From: Nordella sp. HKS 07
GTDB lineage: Bacteria > Pseudomonadota > Alphaproteobacteria > Rhizobiales > Aestuariivirgaceae
DNA: 64,000 nt
Reading direction: 5' to 3'
NCBI RefSeq assembly: GCF_011046735.1
Contig: NZ_CP049258.1
Location: 1,754,001-1,818,000 of the forward strand
The translations under genes were made by a program, and so were the position numbers. Shown here piece by piece: positions 4,651 to 25,426 of the stretch (its first letter is position 1; every line of letters starts with the position of its first letter). The notes under the pieces were generated by a model that was not told the DNA's origin, made no database searches, and saw only the letters and a list, made by a program, of their open reading frames with translations.

Positions 4651-4671
4651 ATCAAGAAGGGCATGTCTCTT

Positions 4672-5086: not shown

Positions 5087-7444
5087 TCACGCGCCCTCCT
5101 CTTTCACCGCGTGACGTTTCGGCCGCGCTTTGATCTGCAATTCCATCTGCTTCTGCCGCAGCCGCTCCATCTCGCGGAAGGCTTGGTTGCGCCCGGGCAG
5201 ATATTGTTTCGGCCAGTCCTGGTCTTTTGAGCCGTACCAGGCCTGCGCCTGATGGGCGAAATAGGGATTCCACAGATGCGGCCGTGCCAGCGCCACCAGA
5301 TCGGCGCGCCGCGTATGCAGGATGGTGTTGATCTGCGCTGCCTCGGTGATGGCGCCCACCGCCATAGTCGCCATTTTCGGCACGTTGCGGATCGCCTCGG
5401 CGAAAGGCACCTGATACATGCGGCCATAGACCGGCTTCTGATCAGGCACCGTCTGGCCCGAGGAGACATCGATCAGATCGCAACCCGCTTCGCGGAACGT
5501 CTCGGCGATGACGAAGAGGTCAGCCTCGCTGATGCCGCCCTCTTTCCAGTCGGACGCCGAGATGCGCACTGACATCGGCCGCTCCTCCGGCCATGCTGCG
5601 CGCATGGCACTGAAGACTTCCAAAGGATAGCGCAGCCGGTTCTCGATGCTCCCGCCATAGTCGTCATCCCGCTTGTTGGTGAGCGGCGAGATGAAGGAGG
5701 CGAAGAGATAGCCGTGGGCGCAATGCAGCTCGAGCATGTCGAAGCCGGCCCTGGCCGCGCGCTCCGTCGCCGCGACGAATTCCGATTTGATGCGGTCCAT
5801 GCCGGCGCGGTCGAGCTCGGCCGGCACCGGGCTGATCCGCTCGAAATAGGGGATGGCTGAGGCCGATACCACCGGCCAGTTGTCGGCTTCCGCCTCGATC
5901 GGATGATCGGCCTCCTCCCAGCCGAGCTGCGTCGAGCCCTTGCGGCCGGAATGGCCGAGCTGCATGCAGATTTTCGCATCCGACGACATATGGACGAAGT
6001 CGACGATGCGCTTCCATTGCGCCTCCTGGGCGTCGCTCCACAGGCCGGCACAGCCGAGCGAGATGCGCGCATCGGGCGAGGGACAGGTCATCTCGACGAA
6101 GATCAGCCCCATGCCGCCCAGCGCATGCGAGCAGTAATGCACGAAATGCCAGTCGGTGAGATTTCCGTCCCTGTCGGCGGAATATTGCGCCATCGGCGAC
6201 ATCACCACCCGGTTCGTCACTTCCATGCCGCGCAGACGGAACTTGGTGAACATCGGGGTCGGGCGCGATGAGCGATAGTCATAGCCGGTCTCGCGGAAAT
6301 AGCGCTCATACCATTCGCTGTCCGCCTTGGCGACGAAGCCCGGATCGCGGATGAGGAGATTGTCATAGGTGATGGTCTTGGCCCGGCACATGACCACCAT
6401 GGCGAACTGCATCGGCTCCATGTCGAAGGAGCGTTTCATATGCTCGAACCAGGCGAGCGACACATCGGCATTGTGCTGCACCACCTGGCAGGGCACGCGC
6501 CGCGCCGCGTCATAGGCGGTGAAGGCGGCCTTTACGTCGGTGGCGCCATGCTTCACCACCGCGTCGGAGAGGCCGATGGCGCATTCCATCGCGAGCTTGG
6601 TGCCGGAGCCGATGGAAAAATGCGCCGAGGCCTTGGCATCGCCGAGCAGAACGATGTTCTTGTGGCTCCAGTTTTCACAGAAGATGCGTGGAAAGCGCCG
6701 CCAATAGGAGCGGTTGAGGAGCAAGGGATGGCCCCCGAGCTCTTGCCTGTAGAGCGCCTCGAGCTTGGCCTTCGAACCTTCCTCGTCCGTCTCCGTGAAG
6801 CCGTGACCCTGCCAGCATCCCTCGTCCATCTCGAAGACCCAGGTCGATTTGCCTTTCTCATATTGATAGGTATGGGCGCAGATCACCCCATGCGGCGTCT
6901 GCTTGAAGAAGTAGTTGAACTCGTCCATCGGGCGCGTCGAGCCCATCCAGCAGAAGCGGTTGGCCTTCATCGAGACCTGGGGCTTGAAATGCTCCTTGTA
7001 ATGCTCGCGGATGACGGAATTGATGCCGTCGGCGGCCACCACGATATCGGCCGAGGAGCAAAGTTGTTCGATCTCTTGCGGGTCGATGCGGCGGCTGAAG
7101 GTGAGCCCCACCCCTTCCTCGCGGCAGCGCGCATGCAGGAGCTGCAGCAGCGTCATGCGCGACAGCCCGCAGAAGCCGTTGCCGCCGCAGCGGATCTCGT
7201 GGCCCTGATAGTGGATGGCGACATCGTCCCAATAGGCGAATTTCGCGCGGATGCAGTCATAGGAAGGGTGATCATGCGACAGGAACTCGCCGAGCGTGTC
7301 GTCGGAGAAGACGACACCGAAGCCGAATGTGTCGTCGTCCCGGTTCTGCTCGATGACCTCGATGTCCCAACGGGGCTTCGCCTTCTTGGTGAGAAGGGCG
7401 AAATAGAGGCCGCCGGGGCCGCCGCCGATCACCTTGATCCGCAT
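5087..7444 (-). CDS. Bifunctional anthraniloyl-CoA monooxygenase/reductase (or salicylyl-CoA 5-hydroxylase type)
   Basis: 785 residues. The N-terminal about 390 are a class A FAD monooxygenase (VIGGGPGGLYFALLTKK at 5-21; the GD motif VLLGDAKASAHF near 267-278). The C-terminal about 385, from PTPMFTKFRL, are an old-yellow-enzyme FMN oxidoreductase (VVMSPMAQYSA, LHCAHGYLFASFISP, DDDYGGS). This architecture and length match 2-aminobenzoyl-CoA monooxygenase/reductase of Azoarcus and the related salicylyl-CoA 5-hydroxylases: dearomatisation of an aryl-CoA. ATG 7444 is preferred (gggag at 8 bases) over GTG 7447. It is followed one base later by ridA and preceded by a sigma70 promoter shared in sequence with two other genes here. 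Anthraniloyl-CoA is favoured as substrate by the RidA partner and by indole-related genes nearby. Confidence 0.88.
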   Translation of the reverse strand: MRIKVIGGGPGGLYFALLTKKAKPRWDIEVIEQNRDDDTFGFGVVFSDDTLGEFLSHDHPSYDCIRAKFAYWDDVAIHYQGHEIRCGGNGFCGLSRMTLLQLLHARCREEGVGLTFSRRIDPQEIEQLCSSADIVVAADGINSVIREHYKEHFKPQVSMKANRFCWMGSTRPMDEFNYFFKQTPHGVICAHTYQYEKGKSTWVFEMDEGCWQGHGFTETDEEGSKAKLEALYRQELGGHPLLLNRSYWRRFPRIFCENWSHKNIVLLGDAKASAHFSIGSGTKLAMECAIGLSDAVVKHGATDVKAAFTAYDAARRVPCQVVQHNADVSLAWFEHMKRSFDMEPMQFAMVVMCRAKTITYDNLLIRDPGFVAKADSEWYERYFRETGYDYRSSRPTPMFTKFRLRGMEVTNRVVMSPMAQYSADRDGNLTDWHFVHYCSHALGGMGLIFVEMTCPSPDARISLGCAGLWSDAQEAQWKRIVDFVHMSSDAKICMQLGHSGRKGSTQLGWEEADHPIEAEADNWPVVSASAIPYFERISPVPAELDRAGMDRIKSEFVAATERAARAGFDMLELHCAHGYLFASFISPLTNKRDDDYGGSIENRLRYPLEVFSAMRAAWPEERPMSVRISASDWKEGGISEADLFVIAETFREAGCDLIDVSSGQTVPDQKPVYGRMYQVPFAEAIRNVPKMATMAVGAITEAAQINTILHTRRADLVALARPHLWNPYFAHQAQAWYGSKDQDWPKQYLPGRNQAFREMERLRQKQMELQIKARPKRHAVKEEGA

Positions 7445-7482
7445 CACTCGTTCTCCCGACCGCCAGGGTCCGATCAGAAATT

Positions 7483-7511
7483 ACTATAGAACTAAACTAA
7501 TCTCCGGACAA
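7483..7511 (-). promoter_or_regulatory. Promoter of the monooxygenase-ridA operon with overlapping operator-like dyad
   Basis: Read on the minus strand: -35 TTGTCC (7506-7511), 17-base spacer, -10 TATAGT (7483-7488), about 40 bases before ATG 7444. The sequence TTTAGTTCTATA (7485-7496) overlaps the -10. The same promoter recurs almost base for base at 8907-8935, and the dyad TTTAG-N2-CTAAA occurs over the -10 at 20058-20069. Confidence 0.7.
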
Positions 7512-7596
7512 TGCTTTAGATATGAAGCAATTTGCCCCCTTGAAGAAGGAGCAAGATTTTCTTACGTTATAGTCATCGATACAGATGGAGTATGAA

Positions 7597-7809
7597 ATGG
7601 CTGAGACCGCGACCCTGTCGTCGAAGTTCCAGATCTCGATTCCGAAGGCAATCCGCACCGCCCAGCACTGGGAGGCGGGCCTGACATTTGCGTTCATCCC
7701 CAAGGGAACGGGTGTCCTGCTGGTACCCGTGCCCAGGCGCGAGTCGCTTGCCGGGATCGCGAAGGGTGCGTCCACGACCGGCTATCGTGACCGGTCGGAT
7801 CGGGTCTGA
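7597..7809 (+). CDS. vapB: AbrB/SpoVT-type antitoxin (VapB)
   Basis: 70 residues. The N-terminal SKFQISIPKAIRTAQHW is the swapped-hairpin AbrB DNA-binding fold, here with Gln in place of the usual Val of the 'KGQVTIPK' pattern. The C-terminal tail, rich in Arg and Ser, would be the toxin-binding part. ATG 7597 is chosen because ggag precedes it by 6 bases; an earlier in-frame ATG at 7585 adds 4 residues. Its stop overlaps the start of the PIN-domain gene (TGATG), as usual in vapBC operons, which repress themselves. Confidence 0.88.
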   Translation: MAETATLSSKFQISIPKAIRTAQHWEAGLTFAFIPKGTGVLLVPVPRRESLAGIAKGASTTGYRDRSDRV

Positions 7810-8189
7810 TGCGCCTTGTCGATACCTCTGCCTGGATCGAATGGCTGATCGGCTCACCGACGGGAAAGCTCGTCGCCAAGCACTTACCTGAGCAATCCGA
7901 CTGGCTGGTGCCCACCATGATACAGCTCGAGCTCGCAAAATGGCTTGTGCGCGAAGTCGGCGAGGACAAGGCCGATCAGGTCATCGCCTTCACGCAACTC
8001 TGCCACATTGTACCGCTCGACACCGAGCTCGCGCTGGCGGCAGCCGAGGCCTGCCTGACGCACAAGCTGGCGACGGCCGATGCCATCGTATTTGCCACCG
8101 CCCGCACTCACGGGGCCGACCTCATCACGTGCGATGCGCATTTCGGCAGCCTGCCGGGCGTAACGCTAATCGAGAAGATCAAGGCCTGA
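7809..8189 (+). CDS. vapC: PIN-domain ribonuclease toxin (VapC)
   Basis: 126 residues with the acidic PIN residues: Asp in MRLVDTSAWIEW, Glu in QLELAKWL, Asp in KLATADAIVFATAR and Asp in LITCDAHF. These bind Mg2+ in an RNase active site; VapC toxins cut tRNA or rRNA until bound by VapB. It overlaps the antitoxin gene by one base. Length and motifs are complete, so the pair is probably functional. It stands between two aromatic-regulon promoters facing the other way. Confidence 0.92.
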   Translation: MRLVDTSAWIEWLIGSPTGKLVAKHLPEQSDWLVPTMIQLELAKWLVREVGEDKADQVIAFTQLCHIVPLDTELALAAAEACLTHKLATADAIVFATARTHGADLITCDAHFGSLPGVTLIEKIKA

Positions 8190-8242
8190 ACCCCGGCTCC
8201 CATTCCGAGCCATCTATATAGGCGGACAGTCTGCAACCGGCC

Positions 8243-8839
8243 CTATTTCGCCGGATCCTTGGGCGACCATAACACGGTGCCGCCGTCCTTCTCATACGCC
8301 ATGCCTTTGGGATAGCTGATGAGCTCGAATTGCAGCCCCCACGGCGCCATGAAATAGAGGATGGACTGGCCGGCCGCCGGCCCCTGCTCGACCGGCAAGG
8401 GTCCCATCATGGTTCGCACATTGTTGGCTTTGAGATAGTCGGCGGCGGCTTTGATGTCGTCGACATAGAAGGCGATGTGATAGCCGCCGATATCGCTGTT
8501 CTTCGGCTGCGCTTCCTTCTGGTCGGGCGATGAATATTGGAAGAGCTCGATATTCGAGCCATAGCCGCAGCGCACCAGCGAGATCTGCTCGATCTTGGCG
8601 CGCGGATTGACGTTGAGCAGGTCCTGCATGAAGGTGCCCTTGTCGTCCGAGAAGGGCCCGAATGTCATCGCATGCTGGCAGCCCAGCACATTGGTGAAGA
8701 AGTCGAGCGCCTGCTTGATGTCGGGCACCGTGACGCCGGTATGGTCATGCCCGCGCAGACCAGGCAGCGATCCGGCCATGGCCGGGACGGCGAGAAGACA
8801 GGCGGCAAGCGACAACGACGCGGCGAATCTCATTCGCAT
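8243..8839 (-). CDS. Exported VOC-superfamily (glyoxalase/bleomycin-resistance/dioxygenase fold) protein
   Basis: 198 residues from ATG 8839, which has cggagg upstream; the frame is open further but shows no signal there. Residues 1-about 22 are a signal peptide (MRMRFAASLSLAACLLAVPAMA). The mature part has two beta-alpha-beta-beta-beta modules with the metal-ligand pattern His (GHDHTGVTVPD), Glu (NIELFQYSS), His (GGYHIAFYVDD) and Glu (WGLQFELISYP). The substrate is unknown. Periplasmic VOC proteins are uncommon, since most act in the cytosol. Its promoter is nearly identical to that of the aryl-CoA monooxygenase, so it probably belongs to the same regulon. Confidence 0.85.
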   Translation of the reverse strand: MRMRFAASLSLAACLLAVPAMAGSLPGLRGHDHTGVTVPDIKQALDFFTNVLGCQHAMTFGPFSDDKGTFMQDLLNVNPRAKIEQISLVRCGYGSNIELFQYSSPDQKEAQPKNSDIGGYHIAFYVDDIKAAADYLKANNVRTMMGPLPVEQGPAAGQSILYFMAPWGLQFELISYPKGMAYEKDGGTVLWSPKDPAK

Positions 8840-8906
8840 GTTGCGTTCCTCCGGGACGGGCCGGTGCCTTGCCAGGTCCGGTGTCTTTCGAGCGGCACCT
8901 GGCATT

Positions 8907-8935
8907 ACTATAGAACTAAACTAATTTGCGGACAA
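8907..8935 (-). promoter_or_regulatory. Promoter of the VOC gene, near-copy of the monooxygenase promoter
   Basis: Minus strand: -35 TTGTCC (8930-8935), 17-base spacer, -10 TATAGT (8907-8912). About 50 bases around it match 7481-7532, including upstream tctaaagcattgtccg and spacer attagtttagttc. The dyad TTTAGTTCTATA (8909-8920) again covers the -10. Confidence 0.7.
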
Positions 8936-8996
8936 TGCTTTAGAATTGAAGCAATTGGGGTTCCTCGCCGCTATCATATGCACACATCTCATGAGG

Positions 8997-9235
8997 GATG
9001 CGCCCTTACCCTGGCCCCGCTTTAGCGGGGAGAGGGAGGGACCCATTGCGAAGCAATGGGAGGGTGAGGGGCCTTTGCGAGATTGAGTTCGACCTCAGGC
9101 AACCAACGCTCTCGCGACAAGTAGAACCTCACTGCGTCGGTGGCCGTGCCCCTCACCCTTCCCGCCGCTGCGCGTCGGGCCCCTTCCCTCTCCCCGCTGC
9201 GCTTCGCTTGCAGGGCGAGGGTAAAGCGGCAGGTC
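8997..9235. repeat. Long imperfect inverted repeat between genes
   Basis: Left part ttaccctggccccgctttagcg, gagagggagg and gggtgaggggcc are mirrored by gcccctcaccc, ttccctctccccgc and gcgagggtaaagcg about 150 bases later. No credible protein is encoded. This type of repeat is common between genes in this group. Confidence 0.6.
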
Positions 9236-9249
9236 GCTCATCAGATTGT

Positions 9250-9420
9250 GTGAATCCGATACCGGCGAAAGCCGGGACCCATAAAAGCCCGTCCGCGCAA
9301 GCAGCGCTGACCGCTTTGCGGGTACCTAGTGGATCCCGGCTTGCGCCTGCCCATTCTTCGGACGGGCGAGAACCTGCCTTTGCAGGAGGCGCCGGGGTGC
9401 AAGCTCCGCGAAAGCCCCTC
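9250..9420. repeat. Intergenic repeat-like sequence
   Basis: Starts with aatccgataccggcgaaagc and ends near gcgaaagcccctc, with small hairpins (accggcgaaagccggg; ctgcctttgcaggagg). The 'ccggcgaaagccgggaccc' type of sequence is scattered through many alphaproteobacterial genomes. I see no gene in it. Confidence 0.4.
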
Positions 9421-9681
9421 TTGCAATCGCGTGCGCGACCATGGGATTGGAAATTTCATCATCGGAGCAACGCTGGCCCGTCGCATGCTCGCGACGACCA
9501 GTTCCTCAACCAATAACAGGTGGAAATTACCTGTTCAGCCGCGCCGAATTTTGTCTAAGCCTATGATATTGTTTCGACCACTCTCCGCTTTCGCGAGAAT
9601 CTCCTGTAGTTCCCTGTTTTCACCTGTATTCACCTGTATTGGCCTGCAAATGCGAAGGGTCAGAGACTCGCGACTGTCATG
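9421..9681. repeat. Direct repeat unit A flanking the Cys-rich gene pair
   Basis: The first about 46 bases (from ttgcaatcgcgtgcgcgacc) match 10906-10952 with about six differences and one indel. The end carries degenerate tandem units (ttccctgttttcacctgtatt...) and then CAGAGACTC at 9661, echoing the 3' end of iorB at 11143. The two outer landmarks are 240 bases apart here and 237 apart in unit B; the middle does not align. The two units bracket the genes at 9774-10757. Confidence 0.55.
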
Positions 9682-9773
9682 AACGCCCCACTGGCGCGCC
9701 CTGACAGAAACATCCGGCGGGTAATATGATGAGCGAAAGCGGACCTCATTCGAATCTCCTCACGACCGACAAT

Positions 9774-10349
9774 TCAATGAGCGTGGTTCTCGCCACCGCA
9801 ACCGTCGGACAAATTCCAGACCGCGGCGAGTTTGCTTCCATCGAATCCGCGATCACGGATAAGCAGTTTTCCGAGACCTCCGTAAACGTGCCACCGCCAG
9901 CACTCGCAGCAACAGGGGCCTTTCTCGGTTGATGTGGCCATTGCGCGATCATAGGCTTTCTGCTGCTGCACCTTGAGCTTGATGTCGGAAGCCACCAGAA
10001 GCCGCTTCGCGAGTCCGGCTTCGATGTCGTAGGGATCGGGCGGAATTTCGAGGATCGCTGAAAAGGCCTTGAGCCCGGCGATCTGCTCTCCATAGCGGTG
10101 CAAGTCCATCGGCCCGCAGCAGGAACCTTGGAGCCTCGCCGTATCGGACATTGTCCGAATGGACTCCAGGAAGGCTTGCGAACAATTCGAGTTTCCGTTC
10201 CTGCTCAGGAACTCGAACCGCTTCGCGAGATCATCCCCGGTGACTTGAGCAGAGCTCGATACCCCCGGCACAAGCGCTGTCAGGAGTGTCGCGAGAGAGC
10301 CAAAGACCGCATTGCGGCGCGTGATGATATCAAGAGCAAAGTCAGACAT
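9774..10349 (-). CDS. Exported Cys-rich hypothetical protein, 191 aa
   Basis: ATG 10349 follows a strong aaggaga site. The N-terminus has a twin-arginine-like start (ITRRNAVFGSLATLLTALVP) ending near SSA, so export is likely. The mature part has SCCGPMD, a CCCEC cluster (KGPCCCECWRW) and a C-terminal SDGCGGE and HAH. The Cys/His content suggests metal binding or disulfides in the periplasm. I do not recognise the function. It lies 81 bases after a second small exported gene in the same direction, and both are enclosed by direct repeats. Confidence 0.75.
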   Translation of the reverse strand: MSDFALDIITRRNAVFGSLATLLTALVPGVSSSAQVTGDDLAKRFEFLSRNGNSNCSQAFLESIRTMSDTARLQGSCCGPMDLHRYGEQIAGLKAFSAILEIPPDPYDIEAGLAKRLLVASDIKLKVQQQKAYDRAMATSTEKGPCCCECWRWHVYGGLGKLLIRDRGFDGSKLAAVWNLSDGCGGENHAH

Positions 10350-10430
10350 GCTGACGGTCTCCTTGATTGGAGGGATTGAGTTTACGGTCGCGCCGACACT
10401 GCCGGCGCGGACAGACAGATGAGTTTGCTT

Positions 10431-10757
10431 TTACCCAGGTGAGACAGGCGGCACCGTGTGCCACTCTGCTGGCCGCGTCATCGTGACTGGCGCATAACGC
10501 AGTGGGGTCGCCGCTACGAAGTGAATATAGGATGTTTCGGGGGCAAGCTGGCACGTGATCTGCTGGCAGCTCGTGAGTGCCATGTTGGCCTTCGGGCACG
10601 GCTTGCAGGTCATGGAGCCATCCAAAGAGGACTGCATAAAGCCCTGATCCTTCGAGGATGCCACCCGCATGACCGCTGAAAAAGGAGCAATAGCCATGAG
10701 GATCGTCGCGAGAAGCGCAACCACCGCAAGGGTCCGCCATGACCGCAAGGTCTTCAT
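10431..10757 (-). CDS. Small exported protein, 108 aa
   Basis: N-terminal hydrophobic signal (MKTLRSWRTLAVVALLATIL, residues 1-about 25) followed by a mature part with four Cys (TCKPCPKA and SCQQITCQL). It is first of a two-gene minus-strand unit with the Cys-rich 191-residue protein. No ribosome binding site is obvious. The function is unknown; two CxxC-like pairs fit a redox or metal-handling periplasmic peptide, but this is only inference. Confidence 0.65.
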   Translation of the reverse strand: MKTLRSWRTLAVVALLATILMAIAPFSAVMRVASSKDQGFMQSSLDGSMTCKPCPKANMALTSCQQITCQLAPETSYIHFVAATPLRYAPVTMTRPAEWHTVPPVSPG

Positions 10758-10905
10758 AGGGCTATTATTGTTCCCGCTCCGAAGTTCGACAACCGGAGAT
10801 ACGCCGCTTTGAGATCAATTCGGCGCGAGGTCGAAAAGCACAGCGAGGACGCACCAGTCTCAATGGTCAAGCCAAGAAACTCCATTGATTGATGCCGGAA
10901 TTTCC

Positions 10906-11162
10906 TTGAAATCGCGTGCGCGATCATGGAATTGGAAATTTCCATCGTAGGAATTGCGCGTTATCGGCCTGTATTCCATGTGGCCGTCATCATATCCTGT
11001 GTGCGCGATCGCAGTGCGTTGCGCCGACTAAATTCCCTGCTCGATAGCCTCCCGGCCGGCTAAGCATTTGAAATCACTCGGAGTGGCACTTTTTTCTGCA
11101 AATTTCCCTGCAAATCCCTGCAAATCCCTGCATCCGCTGGCTCAGAGACTCTCGACCGTCTT
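10906..11162. repeat. Direct repeat unit B with degenerate 'ccctgcaaat' tandem units
   Basis: Begins ttgaaatcgcgtgcgcgatc, matching 9421-9466. At 11095-11133 the unit ccctgcaaat is repeated about three times, and the end runs into the last codons of iorB (CAGAGACTC at 11143-11151). The rest of 10758-11141 holds no gene that I can see. Confidence 0.55.
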
Positions 11163-12668
11163 GAGCGCGCCGTCGAGCGTCGTGCCATTCTCGTCCTTGA
11201 GTGCGGCCTCGCGCAGGCGGCGCAGCCATGGCGCGCCGTCCTCTCGGCCTTCGAGCAGCGGCAGCGCCGAGAGCACCTTGTCATAGCGCGACAGGCCGCG
11301 CGCATGCGTGTCGCTATAGCCTTTGATGAGACGGCGGCAGCGCAGCACCTCGACGCCGAGTTCGTAATTCACGCGCGCCGTTCGTTCCGCCTCGCTGAGC
11401 CATCGCGCGAGATGGGCCTGCTCGACCTGATGGCGTAAGAGGCCGCGGCGGAAGCGCCGGAGACTTGCGAGCCCATAGAGCACCGCGTACCAGAAGATCC
11501 CGTCGCTGCGCACATGGCGGCCGCGATTGACGAGCCGGTCCAGCGCCTTGAACAGGCCGGGACGGCCTTCGATGAAGCGGCCGAGCCGGGCGGGGAGCAT
11601 GCCGCAGACCTCCTCCATGCGCGGATGCATGAATTCGGTGAGCTTCAGGATCTGCTCGTCGCGCACCGGAACCTCCTCGCGCACGCGCTCGAAGCGCTGG
11701 CTCTCGGTCTTGATCCGCGCCACCCGGATGACGTCGTCATAGGCCATGGCATTGGCCATGTATTTCGCCGCCTCGCGCGTCAAGGCCCGGCCCCTGCCGT
11801 CGCCGCCGAGATCATGGTCGAGCGCCGCGATCTTGACGAGCCGGCCCAGATATTCATCGCCATAGGCGAGATCCTGGAACTCGACGACCTTGGCGAGGCC
11901 GCGTTTCACCATGTCGCGGCAGTCGGGTGGCATCTCGTCATCGATGCGGGCGACGAGCGCCTGATAGCGCTCGAGCAGCGCCGCTGGCCCCTCGATCCGG
12001 GCGGGTGCGCTTTCCGGCTTCGAGTCGAGAACGATCGGAGCCAGCGCCGCATCGAAAGCCTCGTGGAAGGCTTTGAGGCTTGCCTCGATGCCTTTGCCGC
12101 CGCTCTTGATCGTCGCCTCGAAGCTCTCGCGCGGGAAAGGCAGGACGGCGGCCGCCGCGAGCGCGCCGAACAGGCTCGCCGAGATGACACTGCCATTGCG
12201 GGCGGCGATCGCCTCGAGATCGGCGGCGACGAAGCGGCGCGCCGTCTTGCGCGCCGTCTCGATGACCGCCGCACCGTTGGCGATGCCATTGCCCGGCGCC
12301 GACTTCTCCGATACCGCGAAGGCGCGGTGCGAGGAGGCGATGAGCGTGGTGCGTTCCGGCGTCACCAGACCGCGCATCATCGCGCGTCCGGCTTCCATGA
12401 GCTCGGCGGCGATGACGATATCGACATCGCCGGGCGCCGGCATCAGGGCCAGGATCGGGGTCTTGCCGCGATCGGGCACCATTTCGATATAATAGATCGT
12501 GGCGCCGGTGCGCTGAGCGACGCCCGGCACCGAGGTCGCCTGCGCGTACCAGCCATTCTCCTCGGCGAGATGGACGATCCAGTCCGAGACCACGCCGCCG
12601 CCCTGCCCGCCCACCGCCAATATGGCGAGCTTGATGATCTGATTCTGGCGCGGCAGCTGCATGTTCAT
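11142..12668 (-). CDS. iorB: Indolepyruvate ferredoxin oxidoreductase, beta subunit with long C-terminal extension
   Basis: 508 residues. The first about 200 are the pyruvate ferredoxin oxidoreductase gamma-type domain (IKLAILAVGGQGGGVVSDWI, YAQATSVPGVAQRTGATIYY, SASLFGALAAA). The remaining about 300 form a helical extension (DUF6537-like) found in long IorB forms; archaeal IorB is only about 200 residues. With IorA it oxidatively decarboxylates aryl-pyruvates (indolepyruvate, phenylpyruvate) to the aryl-acetyl-CoA, reducing ferredoxin. ATG 12668 overlaps the iorA stop (ATGA), so the subunits are translationally coupled. Its 3' end is the site echoed by a duplicated sequence at 9661. Confidence 0.92.
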   Translation of the reverse strand: MNMQLPRQNQIIKLAILAVGGQGGGVVSDWIVHLAEENGWYAQATSVPGVAQRTGATIYYIEMVPDRGKTPILALMPAPGDVDIVIAAELMEAGRAMMRGLVTPERTTLIASSHRAFAVSEKSAPGNGIANGAAVIETARKTARRFVAADLEAIAARNGSVISASLFGALAAAAVLPFPRESFEATIKSGGKGIEASLKAFHEAFDAALAPIVLDSKPESAPARIEGPAALLERYQALVARIDDEMPPDCRDMVKRGLAKVVEFQDLAYGDEYLGRLVKIAALDHDLGGDGRGRALTREAAKYMANAMAYDDVIRVARIKTESQRFERVREEVPVRDEQILKLTEFMHPRMEEVCGMLPARLGRFIEGRPGLFKALDRLVNRGRHVRSDGIFWYAVLYGLASLRRFRRGLLRHQVEQAHLARWLSEAERTARVNYELGVEVLRCRRLIKGYSDTHARGLSRYDKVLSALPLLEGREDGAPWLRRLREAALKDENGTTLDGALKTVESL

Positions 12669-14827
12669 CGTGGCGTTCCCACCTTGACGAAGCGCAGGGA
12701 CCTCGCATCACGCCGCCTCTGGAGGAAATCGATCACCTTGTGCCGCAGCCGCGCCAGGATAGTGTCGAGGCGGTTCGGATTGCTGATCACGTCGGCACGA
12801 TAGAAGGAGGGGCATAACACGGCGGCGTCCGCCACCTCGCCGCAATTGCCGCAACCGACGCAGGACTGGTCGATCGACGCCACGGGATCGTCGCGCAAGG
12901 GATCGTCCAGCTGCTTCACGCTGAGCGACGGGCAGCCCGACAGGCGGATGCAGGCATGATCGCCGGTGCACACATCCTCATCGACGCCGAAGCGCGGCTT
13001 CACCACCCGTTTTCCGTCATGGATGGCCTTGGCGACGAGCGGCTTCTCGCGCCGCTGCCGGTTGAGCATGCATTCCGACGAGGCGACGATGACCTTCGGT
13101 CCCTTCTCATTTGTCGTCAGCGCTTCCTTCAGCGTGTCGCGCATGCGCCCGACATCATAGGTGTGGTCGATATGGCGCACCCAGTTGACGCCCACGCCTT
13201 TGACCGCGTCGGTGATCGGGTGCCTGGTTGAGCGCGTGCGGTTGCTGGCGCGCGAGGACAGGATGTCCTGCCCGCCGGTCGCCGCCGAGTAGTAATTGTC
13301 GACCACCAGGATGACGCCGTCATTCTTGTTGAAGACGGCATTGCCGATGCCGGAGGCAAGCCCGTTATGCCAGAAGCCGCCATCGCCCATGATGGCGATC
13401 GAGCGTTTCTTCGCCGGTACGTTGAAGGCGGAGGCCGATGCCGGACCCAGGCCATAGCCCATGGTGGTCGCCCCGATATTGAAGGGCGGCATGATCGAAA
13501 AGAGATGGCAGCCGATATCGGCGGCGACGTGATGCGCCCCGAGCTCCTTCTCGACCAGCTTCATTGCCGCGAAGATCGGCCGTTCCGGACAGCCGGTGCA
13601 GAAGCCGGGCGGGCGCATCGGCACCACTTGCGCCAGATGCGACACGTCGGGCGGCGCCGTCGGCGCATTGGGCAGACGGACCTTGGCGCTGAGCAGCTCG
13701 GGCGCGTGATCGCTCAGGAAGCCGGACAGGCCGTCGAGCATCACCTGGCCGGTATATTCGCCGGCCATCGGCAGGTAACCCTTGCCATGGAGCCGCGTCG
13801 TAGCCCCGGCCTTGTGCAGCATATGGCCGAAGGCCTGTTCGAGATGATCGGGCTGGCCTTCCTCGACCACCAGCACCGCAGCCTTGTCCTTGCAGAAGTC
13901 GAGAAACTCGTCATCCACCAGCGGATAGGTGACATTCAGGATATAGAGCGGCACCATCGACGTGCCGTAGAGATCGGCGAGGCCGAGCCGCTGCAGCGCG
14001 CGGATCACGCCATTATACATGCCGCCCTGCAGCACGATGCCGACCTTGCCGCGCTTCGCTCCCGTCACCTCGTTGAGCTTGTGCGTCTTGATGAAGTCGA
14101 TCGCCGCCGGCCAGCGCTTCTTCACCTTCTCCTGCTCATGCAGGAAGGACGCGGGCGGCAGCACGATGCGCTGCGTATCGCGGCGCGGTGATTCCAGCGC
14201 CTCGGCCACCGACATCGCCGGGCGCTGATTATCCTTGGCAATGAAGCGGCCATGCACATGGCAGGAGCGGATGCGCACTTCCAGCATCACCGGCGTGTTG
14301 GTCGCCTCCGAAAGAGCGAATCCGTCCTCGACCGCCTTCACGATCGCTTCCAGATTGGGCTTGGGATCGAGCAGCCAGATCTGCGATTTCATCGCGAAGG
14401 AATGGCTGCGCTCCTGCATGATCGAGGAGCCTTCGCCATAATCCTCGCCCACGATGATGAGGGCGCCGCCGGTGACGCCGCCCGAGGAGAGATTGGCGAG
14501 CGCGTCGGAAGCGACATTGGTGCCGACCGTCGACTTCCATGTCGCCGCCCCGCGGATCGGATAATGCACCGAGGCCGCGAGGGCGGCGGCCGCCGCCGCC
14601 TCGCTGGCGCTCGCCTCGAAATGCACGCCGAGCTCGCCGAGTATATCCTGCGCGTCGGCGAGCACGTCCATCAGATGCGAGATGGGCGCGCCCTGATAGC
14701 CGACGACATAGCCGACGCCACATTGCAGGAGCGCCTTGGTGATGGCGAGGATGCCCTCGCCGCGGAATTCCTCGCCGGCGCCGATCTTGAGCTGCTGAAC
14801 CTCTTTCGCGAAGGATCGTTCGGCCAT
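12665..14827 (-). CDS. iorA: Indolepyruvate ferredoxin oxidoreductase, alpha subunit
   Basis: 720 residues from ATG 14827 (aggagg upstream); the further open frame lies in repeat DNA and is not Ior-like. The N-terminal pyrimidine-binding domain has VGYQGAPISHLMDVL; the TPP/Mg2+ site is GDGGFWHNGLASG with VDNYYSAATGGQ. The C-terminus carries a ferredoxin-like 2x[4Fe-4S] region: CTGDHACIRLSGCPSL and CVGCGNCGEV with VLCPSF. Thus the enzyme has both TPP and Fe-S centres. It acts in the cytosol, feeding indoleacetyl-CoA or phenylacetyl-CoA to downstream catabolism. A 235-base repeat-bearing gap precedes it, so it may have its own promoter, not identified. Confidence 0.94.
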   Translation of the reverse strand: MAERSFAKEVQQLKIGAGEEFRGEGILAITKALLQCGVGYVVGYQGAPISHLMDVLADAQDILGELGVHFEASASEAAAAAALAASVHYPIRGAATWKSTVGTNVASDALANLSSGGVTGGALIIVGEDYGEGSSIMQERSHSFAMKSQIWLLDPKPNLEAIVKAVEDGFALSEATNTPVMLEVRIRSCHVHGRFIAKDNQRPAMSVAEALESPRRDTQRIVLPPASFLHEQEKVKKRWPAAIDFIKTHKLNEVTGAKRGKVGIVLQGGMYNGVIRALQRLGLADLYGTSMVPLYILNVTYPLVDDEFLDFCKDKAAVLVVEEGQPDHLEQAFGHMLHKAGATTRLHGKGYLPMAGEYTGQVMLDGLSGFLSDHAPELLSAKVRLPNAPTAPPDVSHLAQVVPMRPPGFCTGCPERPIFAAMKLVEKELGAHHVAADIGCHLFSIMPPFNIGATTMGYGLGPASASAFNVPAKKRSIAIMGDGGFWHNGLASGIGNAVFNKNDGVILVVDNYYSAATGGQDILSSRASNRTRSTRHPITDAVKGVGVNWVRHIDHTYDVGRMRDTLKEALTTNEKGPKVIVASSECMLNRQRREKPLVAKAIHDGKRVVKPRFGVDEDVCTGDHACIRLSGCPSLSVKQLDDPLRDDPVASIDQSCVGCGNCGEVADAAVLCPSFYRADVISNPNRLDTILARLRHKVIDFLQRRRDARSLRFVKVGTPR

Positions 14828-14910
14828 CTCTCGTCCTCCTACAGTGCTACCCTCACCCTGGGGTGGCCGCGAAGCGGCCCTCGAAGGGTGTGGGGCGGGC
14901 ACAATGCCAC

Positions 14911-15040
14911 CAATTCGTCATGGCCGGGCCCCGACCCGGCCATCCAGGCTCGACGCCATGCGACTGTTGCACGGAGGGGCTGGATGGCCGCCTCCATGGC
15001 CGGGTTTAACCCGGCCATCCGGGCGGCCATGACGAGTTGG
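14911..15040. repeat. Dispersed about 130-base palindromic repeat, copy 1
   Basis: Starts aattcgtcatggccgggccc and ends ggccatgacgagttgg; the two ends are inverted (aactcgtcatggcc). The inner part has ccatggccgggtttaacccg. A copy with few differences lies at 21704-21833. It fills most of the gap between iorA and marR. Confidence 0.85.
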
Positions 15041-15062
15041 GATGTGGTTCGTTCTCGCATCA

Positions 15063-15563
15063 TCAGACCTGGTTCACATTCTGCAGCATCTTGTGCAGGA
15101 CCGTGATGAAAGTCTCATATTCGGCTTCGCTGACGCCGGAGAAGACTTCCGTGTAACGTTTATACATCAAGGGCCAGAATTGCGCGAAAAGCTGGCGGCC
15201 TTTGTCGGTGAGATAGACCTCGCGCACGCGCAGATCGCCCTTGCGCGGCCGGCTCTTGACCAGCTCCTGCTCCTCCATCGCGTCGAGCGTGCGACTCATG
15301 GTCGACTGCTCGGTGATGGTGTGCAGCGCCAGATCATTCGCCGTCATGCCGGGGGTGATGGAGAGCACCGCCAGCGTGCGCATCTTGGCGGTGGTGAGAT
15401 CGAAAGGCTTCAGCGCCTCCTGCAGGTCGGCGTTCCAGCGCGCCGAGATGCGGTTGATCAGATAGGGCGCGAAGTGGTTGAGACCGATCTCGCCGATCGA
15501 GGGGATCGCGTCCTCGATCGAATTGGAGGGCTTGAGCAAGGTGGTTCCGAAGCGTCCGACCAT
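15063..15563 (-). CDS. MarR-family transcriptional regulator
   Basis: 166 residues with a winged helix-turn-helix: LTTAKMRTLAVLSITPGMT, NDLALHTITEQSTMSRTLDA as recognition region and the wing RPRKGDLRVREVYLTDKG. N- and C-terminal helices would dimerise. MarR proteins of aromatic catabolism usually repress and are relieved by the aromatic or its CoA thioester. ATG 15563 lies 4 bases after the stop of the PYROXD2-like gene, with gaggtga before it, so it is co-transcribed with that gene. It is the only regulator in 4.6-26.6 kb and thus the best candidate to bind the TTTAG-N2-CTAWA dyads at three promoters (inference). Confidence 0.92.
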   Translation of the reverse strand: MVGRFGTTLLKPSNSIEDAIPSIGEIGLNHFAPYLINRISARWNADLQEALKPFDLTTAKMRTLAVLSITPGMTANDLALHTITEQSTMSRTLDAMEEQELVKSRPRKGDLRVREVYLTDKGRQLFAQFWPLMYKRYTEVFSGVSEAEYETFITVLHKMLQNVNQV

Positions 15564-15567
15564 CTGA

Positions 15568-17148
15568 TCACCTCAACGCTTGCGCCAGCATGAAACCCGA
15601 TCCGCCGCCGAGCCCGGCCCCGGGATGGGTCGAGGCGCCGATGTGATAGAGATTGCGGATGAAGGTGCGGTGATTGACCGAGGACTTGAACGGCCGCCAC
15701 AGGAAGGACTGGTCGAGGCCGCAGAAACCGCCATAGGGATCGCCGCCGACCAGATTTATGTTCATCGCCTCGAGATCGGCGGGCGAGCAGGCCTTGCGCG
15801 CCAGCTTGATGTCGTTGAAATCGGCGATGTGGCGCTGAAGGATCCCCTCGACGCGATCCGCATAGGCCTCGCGCACCGCTTCGCTCCACGACCCGTCCGC
15901 CGGCACCGCGATCTTTCCCGCCGCATCGCCTTTGATATGGCGCGGCGCCTCCGGCAGCTGCAGCCACAATATTGCGGCACCTTCCGGACAGCGGCTCGGG
16001 TCGAGTGCCGAGGGCTGGCCGACGCAGATCGTCGGTGTTTCCGGCAGCATGCCGCGCTCGGCTTCGTTCGCCGCCTTCGAGACGCCGTCGAGGCCGGGAG
16101 TGAGATGGAGCAGCGCCACGCGATCGAGGCCGGGTGAAAGCCAGCGTGGTTTCGCCTTCAGCGCATAATGGAGCTGGAAGTTGCCTTTGCCATAGCGATA
16201 GTTCCGCACCTCGCCGGCGAGGTCGCCCGGCAAGGTGAAGCCCTTGAGCAGGCGCTCATAGAGCTGGGTCGGCGTGACCGAGCAGATGATGCCGGCCTTC
16301 GCCGTGATTTCGGAATTGTCGGCGAGCTTGACACCGCGCGCCGTCCCATCACCGCCAGCAAGCACATTGGAGACGTCGGCACCGGTGCGGATTTCACCGC
16401 CCGTCTCACGGATCAGGCCTGAGAAGGCGTCGAGCAGCTTCTGCCCGCCGCCTTTGACGATGGGAGCGCCGGCCGCTTCGAGCGCAAAGGCGATCACTTT
16501 CGCCATCTGCGCCGAATAGGCGCTTTCGGGTCCAAGTCCGGTATGCAGCACCCAGGGCGCCCACAAAGCGCGGCTGACATCGGAGCGGTAATTCGCTTCG
16601 AGCCAGGCGCGCGCCGTGGTGAGCGCCTCACCGAAGAAGCGCGCCAGCGGACGCGGACCGCGCTTCCAGGCTTCGAGCGCCAGGAGCTTGGCGGTCGGCC
16701 AGTTCCACAATTGGCCGCCGAGCAGCGCGAAGAGCAGAGGCGCGTTGCGCTCGACCGCGCCGACATCGGCGAGATGCTGAGCGCCATCGCCCGCGGCGAG
16801 CTGGTCGAGGGCCTCGCCATTGGCGCTGCGCGTTTTGGTCACGACCGCCGCGCGTCCATCCGGCAGGAGCACGCCGGATGGATGCTCGCTGTGGCAGAAT
16901 TCGAGCCCGTGCCGGCCGAGATCGGCGGCCAAGGCGGCATAAGCGGGCGAAGTGATGAAGAGCACGAAGGTCGTCGCCATCACGTCGTGGATGTAGCCGG
17001 GTGCCGTGATCTCTTCGGTGCGGATGCAACCGCCGATCCGATCATTGCGCTCGAGCAGCAGGACGCGTTTGCCTTGCCGGCCCAACAAAGCCGCGCAGAC
17101 CAGGGCATTGATGCCGCTGCCGACGATCACATAGTCAGGATCGGCCAT
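15568..17148 (-). CDS. PYROXD2-like NAD(P)/FAD-dependent oxidoreductase (phytoene desaturase superfamily)
   Basis: 526 residues. N-terminal Rossmann dinucleotide motif DYVIVGSGINALVCAALLGR and the following LERNDRIGGCIRTEE; C-terminal GASTHPGAGLGGGSGFMLAQ, the FAD-contact segment typical of the CrtI/PYROXD2 group. Such proteins are flavin amine or carbon-carbon oxidoreductases; the bacterial members next to aromatic genes have no settled role. A second homologue of similar length starts at 18348 on the other strand but is frameshifted. It is followed after 4 bases by marR. Confidence 0.88.
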   Translation of the reverse strand: MADPDYVIVGSGINALVCAALLGRQGKRVLLLERNDRIGGCIRTEEITAPGYIHDVMATTFVLFITSPAYAALAADLGRHGLEFCHSEHPSGVLLPDGRAAVVTKTRSANGEALDQLAAGDGAQHLADVGAVERNAPLLFALLGGQLWNWPTAKLLALEAWKRGPRPLARFFGEALTTARAWLEANYRSDVSRALWAPWVLHTGLGPESAYSAQMAKVIAFALEAAGAPIVKGGGQKLLDAFSGLIRETGGEIRTGADVSNVLAGGDGTARGVKLADNSEITAKAGIICSVTPTQLYERLLKGFTLPGDLAGEVRNYRYGKGNFQLHYALKAKPRWLSPGLDRVALLHLTPGLDGVSKAANEAERGMLPETPTICVGQPSALDPSRCPEGAAILWLQLPEAPRHIKGDAAGKIAVPADGSWSEAVREAYADRVEGILQRHIADFNDIKLARKACSPADLEAMNINLVGGDPYGGFCGLDQSFLWRPFKSSVNHRTFIRNLYHIGASTHPGAGLGGGSGFMLAQALR

Positions 17149-17170
17149 TCCGTCGTCCCTTTCATCATTT

Positions 17171-17356
17171 CCCCTTCTCCCGCTTGCGGGAGAAGGTGGC
17201 CGAAGGCCGGATGAGGGTGTTTTCTCAACCTCTGTAAAACCGCAAGTGTGGGAAGTGTTGAAGCTTCGGCATTTTGCTCTCTTGAAGAGCTGTCACTAGC
17301 CGAACCAACACCCTCATCCGCCCTGTCGGGCACCTTCTCCCGCAAGCGGGAGAAGG
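17171..17356. repeat. Long inverted repeat with about 50-base arms
   Basis: The left arm (ccccttctcccgcttgcggg ... ggatgagggtgtt) is mirrored by the right arm (aacaccctcatcc ... cccgcaagcgggagaagggg-type end), with a unique loop of about 85 bases. It lies in the 256-base gap between the cyclase and PYROXD2-like genes, may end transcription of the former, and holds no gene. I see no clear promoter for the marR operon in the gap. Confidence 0.8.
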
Positions 17357-17404
17357 GAAAGCAAGCGACCATGGAGAGAAGATCTCCACTCTCGCATGTT
17401 CACC

Positions 17405-18193
17405 TCAGCGCGCTACCAGCGCCAGGACGCGCAGCGGGCTGCCGGTGCCGTTGACGATCTTCAATGGCGCGGCGATCAGGATCGCGCCCTTGGGCGGCAG
17501 CTTGTCGAGATTGCACAGGCTGGCGAGCCCGTAGCGGTTCGACTTGTGCATCAGATTATGTGCCGGGAAAGGCGGCGTCATGCCGCCGGCGGCGCCCGCA
17601 TCGGTGCCGACCGTCTCGCTGCCCCAGCCGATGGCGCCTTTGGACAGGATATATTCGATGCAGTCGACCGTCGGTCCCGGCGAATGCGGACCGGTTTCAT
17701 TGGCATTGAGAAACTCCTGCTCGCTGCCATTGCGTTTGTACCAGTCGGTGCGCATCACGACCCAGCTGCCCTTGGCGATGTCGCCATGCGTCTTCTCCCA
17801 GGCGCGCACGCCGTCCGCCGAGAGGAGGAAATCCGGATTCTTCTTCACCTCGCCGCTGCAGTCGATGACATTGACCGGCGCCACGAAGTTCTTCGGAGCG
17901 ATCCTGTCGGTGGTGCCGTCGGCATAGTCCTTGCCGGTGATCCAGTGCACCGGCGCATCGAAATGCGTACCGGAATGCTCGCCGAGCTTGAGCCAGTTCC
18001 ACGACCAGAAGGGACCGTTCTGATCGTAGTTGGAAATATTGTGCACTTCGACCTTGGGCGTGTTTTTACCGATCTCGGGCGGCAGCTTGATCAGTGGCGT
18101 ATCCGGCCCGAGCGGGGCCGAGAGATCGATGACCTCGATCGCACCCGACAAGAGAGCTTCGGCCAATGAACTGAGATCCGCTTTCTGCGCCAT
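17405..18193 (-). CDS. Cyclase-family metal hydrolase (isatin hydrolase / kynurenine formamidase-like)
   Basis: 262 residues. The family signature HxGTHxDxPxH is EHSGTHFDAPVHW (H73, H77, D79, H83), supplying the metal ligands; further features are GPTVDCIEYI, GSETVGTDAG and PPFPAHNLMH. Family members include isatin hydrolase (isatin to isatinate, on the indole-acetate route to anthranilate) and bacterial kynurenine formamidase (tryptophan to kynurenine to anthranilate). KynB is shorter (about 210), so the isatin-hydrolase group fits better. Both roles lead to anthranilate, which would suit the anthraniloyl-CoA monooxygenase. ATG 18193 has ggaggaaa upstream. It is divergent from the frameshifted oxidoreductase. 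Confidence 0.85.
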   Translation of the reverse strand: MAQKADLSSLAEALLSGAIEVIDLSAPLGPDTPLIKLPPEIGKNTPKVEVHNISNYDQNGPFWSWNWLKLGEHSGTHFDAPVHWITGKDYADGTTDRIAPKNFVAPVNVIDCSGEVKKNPDFLLSADGVRAWEKTHGDIAKGSWVVMRTDWYKRNGSEQEFLNANETGPHSPGPTVDCIEYILSKGAIGWGSETVGTDAGAAGGMTPPFPAHNLMHKSNRYGLASLCNLDKLPPKGAILIAAPLKIVNGTGSPLRVLALVAR

Positions 18194-18309
18194 GCTGTTT
18201 CCTCCGCTGCTTATGTTTGTATTCTGACATTCATCCTATGCCCAATACATGCAAATGCAAGGAACAAATCCTAGCCCTGCATGGCTGATCGGAATTCCAT
18301 GGACAGATT

Positions 18310-18319
18310 ATATGCATAT
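18310..18319. promoter_or_regulatory. Palindrome in the divergent cyclase/oxidoreductase promoter region
   Basis: ATATGCATAT is a perfect 10-base palindrome between the divergent genes starting at 18193 (minus) and 18348 (plus). Nearby atacatgcaaatgcaagg (18245 on) shares ATGCA cores. It may be an operator, but nothing links it to a given regulator. Confidence 0.35.
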
Positions 18320-18347
18320 GCCAGTATGTCTGATGGAGGGGACGTCC

Positions 18348-19918
18348 ATGCGTTATGACGCCATCATTGTGGGTAGCGGCCATAACGGGCTCGCCGCGGC
18401 CATCCATCTGGCGAAGCAGGGTTGGAAGGTCGGCGTGTTCGAGCGCAACAGTATCGCGGGCGGCGCGGTGCAGACCCGCGAGGTGACGCTTCCCGGCTTT
18501 CGTCACGATCTCTTCGCCATGAATCTCGGCCTCTTCGCCGGGTCGGCTTTCATGCGCGCTTATGGCGAGGCGCTCACGCGGCACGGGCTCGCTTTCGCCG
18601 CGGCGAGCGACTGCTTCGCGACCCCTTTCGCCGATGACAGCTGGTTCGGTGTCTCCATGGACAAGGAGAAGAACATCGCCCGCGCGCAGAGATTCTCCTC
18701 GGCGGATGCCGAAGCCTGGCGCCGGCTCAGCGAGCGCTTCGGCCGCGACGCGCCCCATATCTTCGCATTGCTCGGCAGCCCGATGCCATCGCGCGATCTT
18801 TTGTCCATCGGCTGGAAGGCCTGGCGCGCGCAGGGCCTGCCTTGGATGTCGACACGCTGAAGCTCCTCGTTTCATCGCCCCGTGCCTTTCTCGATGCGAC
18901 CTTCGAGTCCGACCAGATCAAGGCGACGCTTGCCGCCTGGGGCCTGCATCTCGATTTCGCTCCCGATATCGCGGGCGGCGCGCTCTTTCCCTATCTCGAA
19001 GCCATGGCCCACCAAAGTTTCGGCATGGCGCTCGGCAAAGGCGGCGCCGACGTGATGATCAAGGCGATGATTGGCTATCTCAAGGAACTCGGCGGCGAGC
19101 TTCATCTCGATGCCGAGGTGCAGCGCATCGACCGCAACCGCGATCGCGCCACCGGGGTCACACTTGCCGACGCGCGGCAAGTCGAGGCGGGGCGCGCGGT
19201 GATCGCCAATGCCTCGCCGCAATCGGTCTTTGGTCGCCTTCTCGACGGCGGCAGCGGCGATGCCGAAACCGATCGCCGCATGAAGTCCTTCCAGCCCGGC
19301 CCCGGCACGATGATGATCCATGTCGCCTGTGACGGCCTGCCCGACTGGACGGCGGGCGAGGAGCTCAAGCGCTTCGCCTACATCCATCTGGCGCCGTCGC
19401 TCGACATGATGAGCCGCGCCTATCACGAGGCGCAGGCCGGCCTGCTGCCGGGAGAACCGGTCGTCGTCGTCGGCCAGCCGACCGCGGTCGACCCGGGCCG
19501 CGCGCCGGCGGGCAAGCATATTCTATGGCTGCAGGTGCGCGTTGTGCCCGCGCGCATCAGGGGGGACAGCGAGGGGATGATCGCATCGACCTCCTGGGAC
19601 GAGATCAAGGACGCCTATGCCGACCGTGTGCTCGCCATTCTCGAAGACTACGCCCCGGGCTTCGCGCGCAAGATCCTGGAGCGCGCCGTCTTCTCGCCCC
19701 TCGATCTCGAACGCGAGAATCCCAATCTCGTCGGTGGCGACAGTCTCGGCGGCAGCCATCATCTGAGCCAGCACTTCTTCTTCCGTCCAACCCCCGGCTG
19801 GTCGCGCTACAAGACACCTGTCCAGGGGCTTTATCTCGTCGGGGCCGCGACCTGGCCGGGCGCCGGCGTCGGCGCCGGATCGGGTTTCATGCTGGCCAAG
19901 ATGCTGGCCAGAGCATGA
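18348..19918 (+). pseudogene. PYROXD2-like FAD oxidoreductase interrupted by a single frameshift
   Basis: From ATG 18348 (gaggggacg upstream) the frame starts YDAIIVGSGHNGLAAAIHLA and ERNSIAGGAVQTRE, then ends at a TGA after ...GLPWMSTR (18855-18860). The rest continues in another frame from about 18842 (LDVDTLKLLVSSPRAFLDAT) to AATWPGAGVGAGSGFMLAK at the C-terminus, stop 19916-19918. Restoring one missing base near 18840 (cctgccttgg) gives about 523 residues, matching the 526 of the paralogue at 15568. No other damage is seen, so this is a recent mutation or a sequencing error. The 3' end runs into RIME-like repeats. It would be divergent from the cyclase and upstream of the ABC importer. 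Confidence 0.85.
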
Positions 19919-20021
19919 TCCGGAAAAGTGCGAAGCGGTTTTCCGAAAAGATCATGCGCAAACAAAAAGATAAAGCATGATCCGGAAAAGTGCGAAGCGG
20001 TTTTCCGAAAAGATCATGCGC
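19911..20021. repeat. Tandem pair of RIME-like palindromes
   Basis: Two nearly identical copies (19911-19960 and 19974-20021) of gcatgatccggaaaagtgcg / aagcggttttccgaaaagat / catgc, separated by aaacaaaaagataaa. The stop codon of the upstream gene lies inside the first copy. Confidence 0.88.
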
Positions 20022-20042
20022 AATAGGTGAAACCAAGCGTGC

Positions 20043-20071
20043 TTGCGGGAGATTTATTTTAGACCTAAAGT
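20043..20071 (+). promoter_or_regulatory. Promoter of the ABC importer-thiolase operon with TTTAGACCTAAA dyad
   Basis: -35-like TTGCGG (20043-20048), 17-base spacer, -10 TAAAGT (20066-20071). TTTAGACCTAAA (20058-20069) is an inverted repeat TTTAG-N2-CTAAA overlapping the -10. The same arrangement, with TTTAGTTCTATA, is found at the monooxygenase (7485) and VOC (8909) promoters. A bound repressor would block RNA polymerase. Confidence 0.55.
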
Positions 20072-20115
20072 ATCTGCATCAGCCCAGCATAGAACCGGGC
20101 AACAGGGAGTGACAC

Positions 20116-21648: not shown

Positions 21649-21703
21649 GGACTGAGCTTGCTGCGATCCATCCCCCTCATCGTGAGATGCGGGCACTGTT
21701 CCA

Positions 21704-21833: not shown

Positions 21834-21874
21834 TGGAAATCGTCGCCTCGGCATGAGGTAGGTTGAGAGATTGC

Positions 21875-25424: not shown

Positions 25425-25426
25425 TC

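Follow-up and report, generated by a model that had tools for sequence, protein, structure and literature searches.

Three promoters of the cluster and their common dyad

The window considered here is a stretch of 64,000 nucleotides from Nordella sp. HKS 07 (contig NZ_CP049258.1, positions 1,754,001 to 1,818,000 of the forward strand), and the elements in question are three of its promoters, called sites A, B and C, together with the operator-like dyad that lies over their −10 boxes. The putative operators and the genes that they head are as follows, in window coordinates; the congeners are four further genomes of the genus.

7482-7499, minus strand: site A, putative operator O1 TAGTTTAGTTCTATAGTA over the −10 box (7488-7483) of the monooxygenase-RidA promoter, −35 box TTGTCC at 7511-7506; from scans, with no copy found at this place in the congeners
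7512-7529, no strand assigned: site A, auxiliary weaker dyad O2 TGCTTTAGATATGAAGCA, abutting the −35 box; read by eye, with a similar block in three congeners
8906-8923, minus strand: site B, putative operator O1, the same 18-mer as at A, over the −10 box (8912-8907) of the VOC promoter, −35 box at 8935-8930; heads VOC-monooxygenase in the congeners
8936-8953, no strand assigned: site B, auxiliary dyad O2 TGCTTTAGAATTGAAGCA; from reading by eye and congener comparison
20055-20072, plus strand: site C, TATTTTAGACCTAAAGTA, over the −10 box (20066-20071) of the promoter of the ATP-binding cassette (ABC) importer-thiolase operon, −35 box TTGCGG at 20043-20048; kept in all four congeners
4672-5085, minus strand: RidA-family protein, downstream of the monooxygenase (Pfam Ribonuc_L-PSP)
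5087-7447, minus strand: monooxygenase-reductase of 786 amino acids, of the salicylyl-coenzyme A (CoA)/2-aminobenzoyl-CoA type (NCBIfam NF006101)
8243-8839, minus strand: VOC/glyoxalase-fold protein; longest open reading frame to 8905, likely start at 8839, N terminus signal-peptide-like by eye (Pfam Glyoxalase on the longest frame)
20116-25424, plus strand: ABC importer of dipeptide/oligopeptide type, with binding protein, two permeases and two ATPases (family matches)
25271-26626, plus strand: 3-oxoadipyl-CoA thiolase-like thiolase (TIGR02430, 653.8 bits, cut-off 597); the family match begins at residue 53-54

The monooxygenase matches NF006101 (salicylyl-CoA 5-hydroxylase/2-aminobenzoyl-CoA monooxygenase) over its full length with 1028.5 bits, under the curated equivalog cut-off of 1078, and its assignment is therefore one of enzyme type only.

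Both minus-strand promoters that the earlier note had described as near-copies were found where it had placed them (site A at 7511-7483, site B at 8935-8907), with identical boxes, TTGTCC-17-TATAGT, and 92% identity over 53 bp. The plus-strand promoter of the importer-thiolase operon, for which the same dyad had been claimed in the same place, was recovered at 20043-20071 as TTGCGG-17-TAAAGT. The −10 boxes are overlaid by TTTAGTTCTATA at sites A and B and by TTTAGACCTAAA at site C. A consensus promoter scan of 7440-9000 returned two promoter-like sites, A and B, against a mean of 0.8 in shuffles. All three sites have in common an 18-bp palindrome, TAnTTTA-N4-TAAAnTA, which is longer than the 12 bp noted earlier; A and B deviate from it at one base (TATA instead of TAAA), and the stretch of O1 and the −10 box is identical between them. 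The second, weaker dyad, which by eye has 3 mismatches, abuts the −35 box of both A and B at 30 bp centre to centre from the first.

Just upstream of site C, at 19912-20023, there are two identical copies of a 50-bp repeat with GATCCGGAAAAGTGCGAAGCGGTTTTCCGAAAAGATC, and a 72% copy stands at 4602-4651.

Rarity and conservation of the dyad

The dyad is rare in this genome (7,184,314 bases in one contig; reversed patterns served as controls). The genome-wide motif scan that the earlier note had proposed returned four places for TTTAGNNCTAWA (5 matches on both strands), three of which are sites A, B and C, while the reversed pattern gave 27 matches. Assuming independent places, the probability that three of the four fall so close together is ~4e-5, a value that is too small because A and B are a duplication. 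Without mismatches, TAKTTTAGNNCTAWAGTA occurs genome-wide at A, B and C only, and TANTTTAGNNCTAWANTA at 3 places (control 0); at up to 3 mismatches TAKTTTAGNNCTAWAGTA showed no genome-wide enrichment (19 matches versus 56 for the control). Allowing up to one mismatch, the 18-bp dyad TANTTTANNNNTAAANTA occurs at six places genome-wide (A, B, C and genome positions 1750197, 6857049 and 2783009) versus four for the reversed control, and four of the six fall within 24 kb around the cluster.

The fourth site, at 1750197 (L005:1501-1518, 1 mismatch), lies 3.8 kb left of the window. On one side it has a minus-strand CoA ligase gene, which matches the benzoate-CoA ligase family TIGR02262 with 381.6 bits (cut-off 375.25); on the other, genes for SDR, MarR (marR-X), enoyl-CoA hydratase, acyl-CoA dehydrogenase and a FadJ-like protein follow one another on the plus strand. 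Stop and start overlap at the SDR/marR-X junction and again at the marR-X/hydratase junction. In the ligase direction a promoter can be read by eye, TTGACA-16-TAGAAT, again with the dyad over the −10 box. A kynureninase-like gene (TIGR01814, 225.3 bits, below the cut-off of 246.4; Pfam KYNU_C above its cut-off) has its ATG 8 bp after the end of the site at 6857049. The place at 2783009 coincides with the end of an ABC permease gene and was treated as chance, as was a match within the window, TTTAGTTGTATA at 45822 (1 mismatch).

Of 69 family genomes searched for the strict form TANTTTAGNNCTAWANTA, 6 contain it: the five from this genus and, with a single site, G046; the reversed control gave 0 in each of the 69. 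In three congeners (G054, G055 and G056) the form occurs twice, once ahead of VOC-monooxygenase and once ahead of the ABC importer; in G057, where the contig with the monooxygenase begins inside VOC, it is seen at the importer alone. The fourth site is retained in G054 and G057, and a weaker block GCTTTAGACTTGAAATAATTT ahead of SDR-marR is kept in all five genus genomes.

The dyad is also conserved at larger distances. Among 80 loci of monooxygenase relatives (the best 80 of 576), 78 had upstreams that were long enough, and the dyad stands within 300 bp upstream of the monooxygenase in 47 of these at up to 1 mismatch and in 56 at up to 2; in 1560 mononucleotide shuffles there were 0 with up to 1 mismatch and 16 with 2. 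Congeners L010-L012 are scored as misses in this count because VOC comes first. Over the 1,530,659 bases of these loci we found 68 dyad sites versus 1 for the reversed pattern. Those away from the monooxygenase lie upstream of marR-X/EchA (L018-L021, L023, L027, L033, L086, L089), of a CoA ligase (L029) or of EchA (L024, L066), often ~700 bp off, so that another gene intervenes; SDR genes were left unlabelled in the labelling of neighbours. By their titles, the dyad-bearing loci are mostly from Alpha- and Gammaproteobacteria. In the order sample (122 monooxygenase genomes and 275 others), 118 upstreams were scored, and the dyad is present ahead of the monooxygenase in 111 at up to 2 mismatches (control 1/118). 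The dyad thus occurs in more than 100 genomes of the order, plus some Gammaproteobacteria.

The candidate regulator

The marR gene within the fourth site's predicted operon (G000:C1:1751053-1751577, 2.4-2.9 kb left of the window) encodes a protein with the MarR winged-helix domain (PF12802, 41.5 bits, cut-off 27; PF01047, 32 bits, cut-off 24.6), and its own operon carries a palindromic operator-like site, that at L005:1501-1518, plus the weaker block. To place it among the MarR proteins of the loci, which were collected with a profile built from 13 seeds, we defined working sets X, Y and Z by tree and recognition helix together, because branches in the tree are long and clade X does not form a single starred clade there; L014_16096, L022_17217, L025_20873 and L031_20929 were left out. 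The recognition helix is mostly GN[IV][ST] in X, ERTxxSR in Y and EQSTxSR in Z, the last two having the common form E[RQ][ST]xxSR. Clade X co-occurs with the monooxygenase: it is present in 118 of the 122 monooxygenase genomes versus 5 of the 275 others, with one match in this genome, and at family level in 17/17 genomes having a full-length monooxygenase match.

Where the MarR gene divergent from the monooxygenase belongs to clade X, the TTTA dyad (up to 2 mismatches) is found in 18/19 loci and a different dyad, TATGTG-N4-TGCACATA (up to 3 mismatches), in 0/19; where it belongs to clade Y, the counts are 1/8 and 8/8. One of the eight, L038, was counted by hand as divergent, its Y frame extending past the gene start. 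The second dyad stands, with 1-3 mismatches, just before the monooxygenase in L038, L042, L043, L044, L047, L052, L055 and L081.

From these observations we consider it probable that a single regulator of the MarR family, most likely the clade-X protein, governs 2-aminobenzoyl-CoA (anthranilate) catabolism and has sites A, B and C as its operators. The position of the dyad over the −10 box argues for repression by steric block: when substrate is missing, a MarR dimer on TAnTTTA-N4-TAAAnTA would shut the promoter and would be released by a compound of the pathway, for which 2-aminobenzoyl-CoA or anthranilate is the likeliest choice. This ligand is a guess from the gene set; an acyl-CoA thioester as clade-X effector is likewise a guess, to which the enzyme neighbours and a MarR-EchA fusion, described below, point indirectly. 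The predicted regulon would comprise the CoA ligase, the SDR-marR-enoyl-CoA hydratase-acyl-CoA dehydrogenase-FadJ-like operon (and so autoregulation), the kynureninase-like gene, VOC, monooxygenase-RidA and the ABC importer-thiolase genes. The single regulon of 4.7-26.6 kb proposed earlier is not supported: with up to 2 mismatches allowed, no TTTA dyad was found in an isatin module at 11.1-19.9 kb, and the CoA ligase/SDR-marR operon and the kynureninase-like gene are proposed members outside the window.

Several observations weigh against assigning the dyad to clade X. Co-occurrence of X and the monooxygenase is too tight for the order-level count to separate X from other constant pathway genes, and therefore the case for X depends mainly on the Y swap and on the site ahead of marR-X. 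In the swap count, mismatch limits were set after inspection of the data, three of the eight clade-Y loci (L042, L043, L044) have an X MarR in another part of the locus as well, L043 carries both dyads, and L083 has a divergent clade-X MarR yet 5 mismatches in the dyad. Two of the four congeners, G055 and G056, are without the fourth site and have only the weaker block before SDR-marR. The kynureninase site carries 1 mismatch and was examined in this one genome, three sites (L029:16507, L063:15468, L064:14657) have no recognised pathway gene near, and 7 of the 118 order upstreams show at least 3 mismatches. Clade X occurs without the monooxygenase in five genomes. Conversely, G366 combines a perfect dyad and clade Z with a closest MarR just 28% identical to X (E 2.8e-9), while G135 (2 mismatches) and G239 (1 mismatch, AT-rich upstream) keep the dyad with only distant MarRs and no clade-X match; G306, with a short upstream, has neither clade X nor dyad. 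The assemblies of G366, G135 and G239 are multi-contig, with G135 and G366 listed as 100 and 95% complete, and the clade-X gene was possibly missed in an assembly gap. In four family genomes (G011, G022, G028, G034), where the monooxygenase was not searched, clade Z was present and no clade X was found.

The earlier note had named as repressor of all three promoters the MarR protein encoded between the sites, at 15063, which belongs to clade Z and lies in the isatin module.

15063-15563, minus strand: MarR 15063, clade Z (MarR family matches, helix comparison, order counts)
17405-18193, minus strand: isatin hydrolase, putative in activity (PDB 4j0n, isatin hydrolase B, E 1.5e-123)
18250-18259, no strand assigned: TGCAAATGCA, proposed operator of MarR 15063 in the divergent region between isatin hydrolase and a flavin adenine dinucleotide (FAD) oxidoreductase; block conserved in three congeners

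The part of that proposal which stands is the single operator-like dyad with a MarR-type regulator as the best candidate for its reader; MarR 15063 itself we rejected as the main regulator, because the dyad does not depend on it, its recognition helix is unlike that of X and its own module is without the TTTA dyad at that limit of 2 mismatches. Its location and family speak for it, as does the order sample, where clade Z is seen only in monooxygenase genomes (49/122 versus 0/275), and G366 and G135 have clade Z and the dyad with no clade-X match. However, clade Z was not found (E 1e-20) in 73 of the 122 monooxygenase genomes, and the dyad is independent of it, being present in 65/69 genomes without clade Z and in 43/45 with it. 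The helix of MarR 15063 resembles that of clade Y, which pairs with the other dyad. Control of the three promoters by MarR 15063 thus appears unlikely, and the nearest MarR in a cluster need not read that cluster's operators.

MarR 15063 may instead control the upstream isatin module, which encodes IorA/IorB-like proteins, isatin hydrolase and FAD oxidoreductases, via a different dyad, although this is a lead only. The isatin hydrolase is identified by sequence through a close, full-length match to 4j0n_A (residues 3-261). Two blocks of its promoter region are conserved in three congeners, one of them with TGCANNTGCA, which resembles the core of the clade-Y dyad. This sequence has a single exact match in 4500-28000 and a single one in each 20-kb stretch taken from three congeners; a search of the 1.5-kb flanks of clade-Z MarRs from other genera gave one exact match in 11 loci. 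The module would fit a route from isatin through isatinate to 2-aminobenzoyl-CoA.

A second FAD oxidoreductase (18228-19918, kin of that at 15568-17148) is broken into two frames here; in three congeners the frame stays open over 516-581 codons (stop to stop). A 182-bp repeat, 83% identical between its copies, stands at 14858-15039, just downstream of MarR 15063, and at 21652-21833, between the importer's binding-protein and permease genes.

Another regulator that constantly accompanies the pathway could also read the dyad, both MarRs being bystanders, and since clade X and the monooxygenase almost always occur together, any third gene of the same constancy would explain the data just as well. 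The dyad nevertheless changes when the MarR beside the monooxygenase changes, and it lies upstream of marR-X here and in several distant loci; we therefore hold this reading to be less likely still than repression by MarR 15063.

Returning to clade X as the preferred regulator, we observed that in 9 of 10 Methylobacterium loci (L032, L034, L045, L046, L049, L051, L061, L071, L079) marR-X and enoyl-CoA hydratase form one continuous protein of 451-549 amino acids, encoded on the minus strand near the locus start; the tenth, L054, ends too early. Identity to the separate proteins of this genome is 44-52% in the MarR part and 64-66% in the hydratase part. Because the genes overlap here and fuse in Methylobacterium, we raise, tentatively and with considerable doubt, the idea that clade X represents a widespread MarR subfamily not described before, which would respond to 2-aminobenzoyl-CoA or to a ring-reduced CoA intermediate and would be linked in function to the enoyl-CoA hydratase of the pathway. 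If so, repressor and enzyme would be one molecule in Methylobacterium and could read pathway flux directly.

Related systems and the toxin-gene insertion

The nearest described parallel that we found is CouR of Rhodococcus jostii RHA1, described in PMC4737184 as a MarR repressor released by p-coumaroyl-CoA. According to that source it too is a MarR dimer with an inverted-repeat box in several aryl-CoA pathway promoters, including its own, and clade X is its weak sequence kin (PDB 6c28, E 5.8e-7). The analogy would extend to an acyl-CoA effector but not to box or place, as the CouR box given there, cATTGA-N5-TCAATg, lies over the −35, in contrast to TAnTTTA-N4-TAAAnTA over the −10 here. IadR and IacR, repressors of indoleacetate catabolism (loci iad and iac) that bind auxin according to PMC9613470, likewise represent MarR control of an indole-ring pathway, and the iad route is described there as running from isatin to anthranilate. 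That study describes a 24-bp bound oligonucleotide, and its main text is without the words motif or palindrom. MarR 15063 resembles 7KYM (E 2.7e-23), a structure deposited with the same study. Clade X is not close kin of the indoleacetate-binding MarRs: its best PDB match is 3boq (E 3.4e-21), and IacR (7KUA) gave E 2.6e-5. HmgS, a predicted MarR regulator of hmgAB in PMC5343134, is a further case of a MarR regulon for an aromatic pathway deduced by comparative genomics, in another pathway and other lineages; the main text of that paper does not contain the terms anthranil, kynuren, salicyl or benzoyl-CoA. In the open-access literature we found no paper naming both 'salicylyl-CoA 5-hydroxylase' and 'MarR', and among the matches listed no regulator of that enzyme and no regulator or dyad of 2-aminobenzoyl-CoA catabolism. 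The clade-X MarR and its dyad would thus offer a testable regulator and operator for the aerobic catabolism of 2-aminobenzoyl-CoA (anthranilate, kynurenine, isatin).

The likeness of sites A and B traces to an insertion.

7456-8242, no strand assigned: 787-bp insertion holding a PIN-domain toxin with a small open reading frame upstream of it (7597-8189, plus strand) and the second promoter copy (7480-7532); not in the four congeners

The small frame matches the MazE type weakly, with a score under the cut-off, and 7535-8242 is single-copy in the genome. Because VOC and the monooxygenase adjoin in all four congeners and are split here by the 787 bp, an insertion of this genome, site B is the ancestral promoter and site A a copy inside the insertion. 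That A/B likeness reflects mere duplication, as the one copy in congeners and two here might suggest, with site C a matter of chance and no common operator, is very improbable and is refuted by the separate conservation of site C and of the VOC-monooxygenase site in the genus and of the dyad across the order. The copy at site A would give monooxygenase-RidA a promoter of its own, and the locus is an example of how insertion of a toxin gene can divide an operon while the downstream part has an operator-promoter copy to itself.

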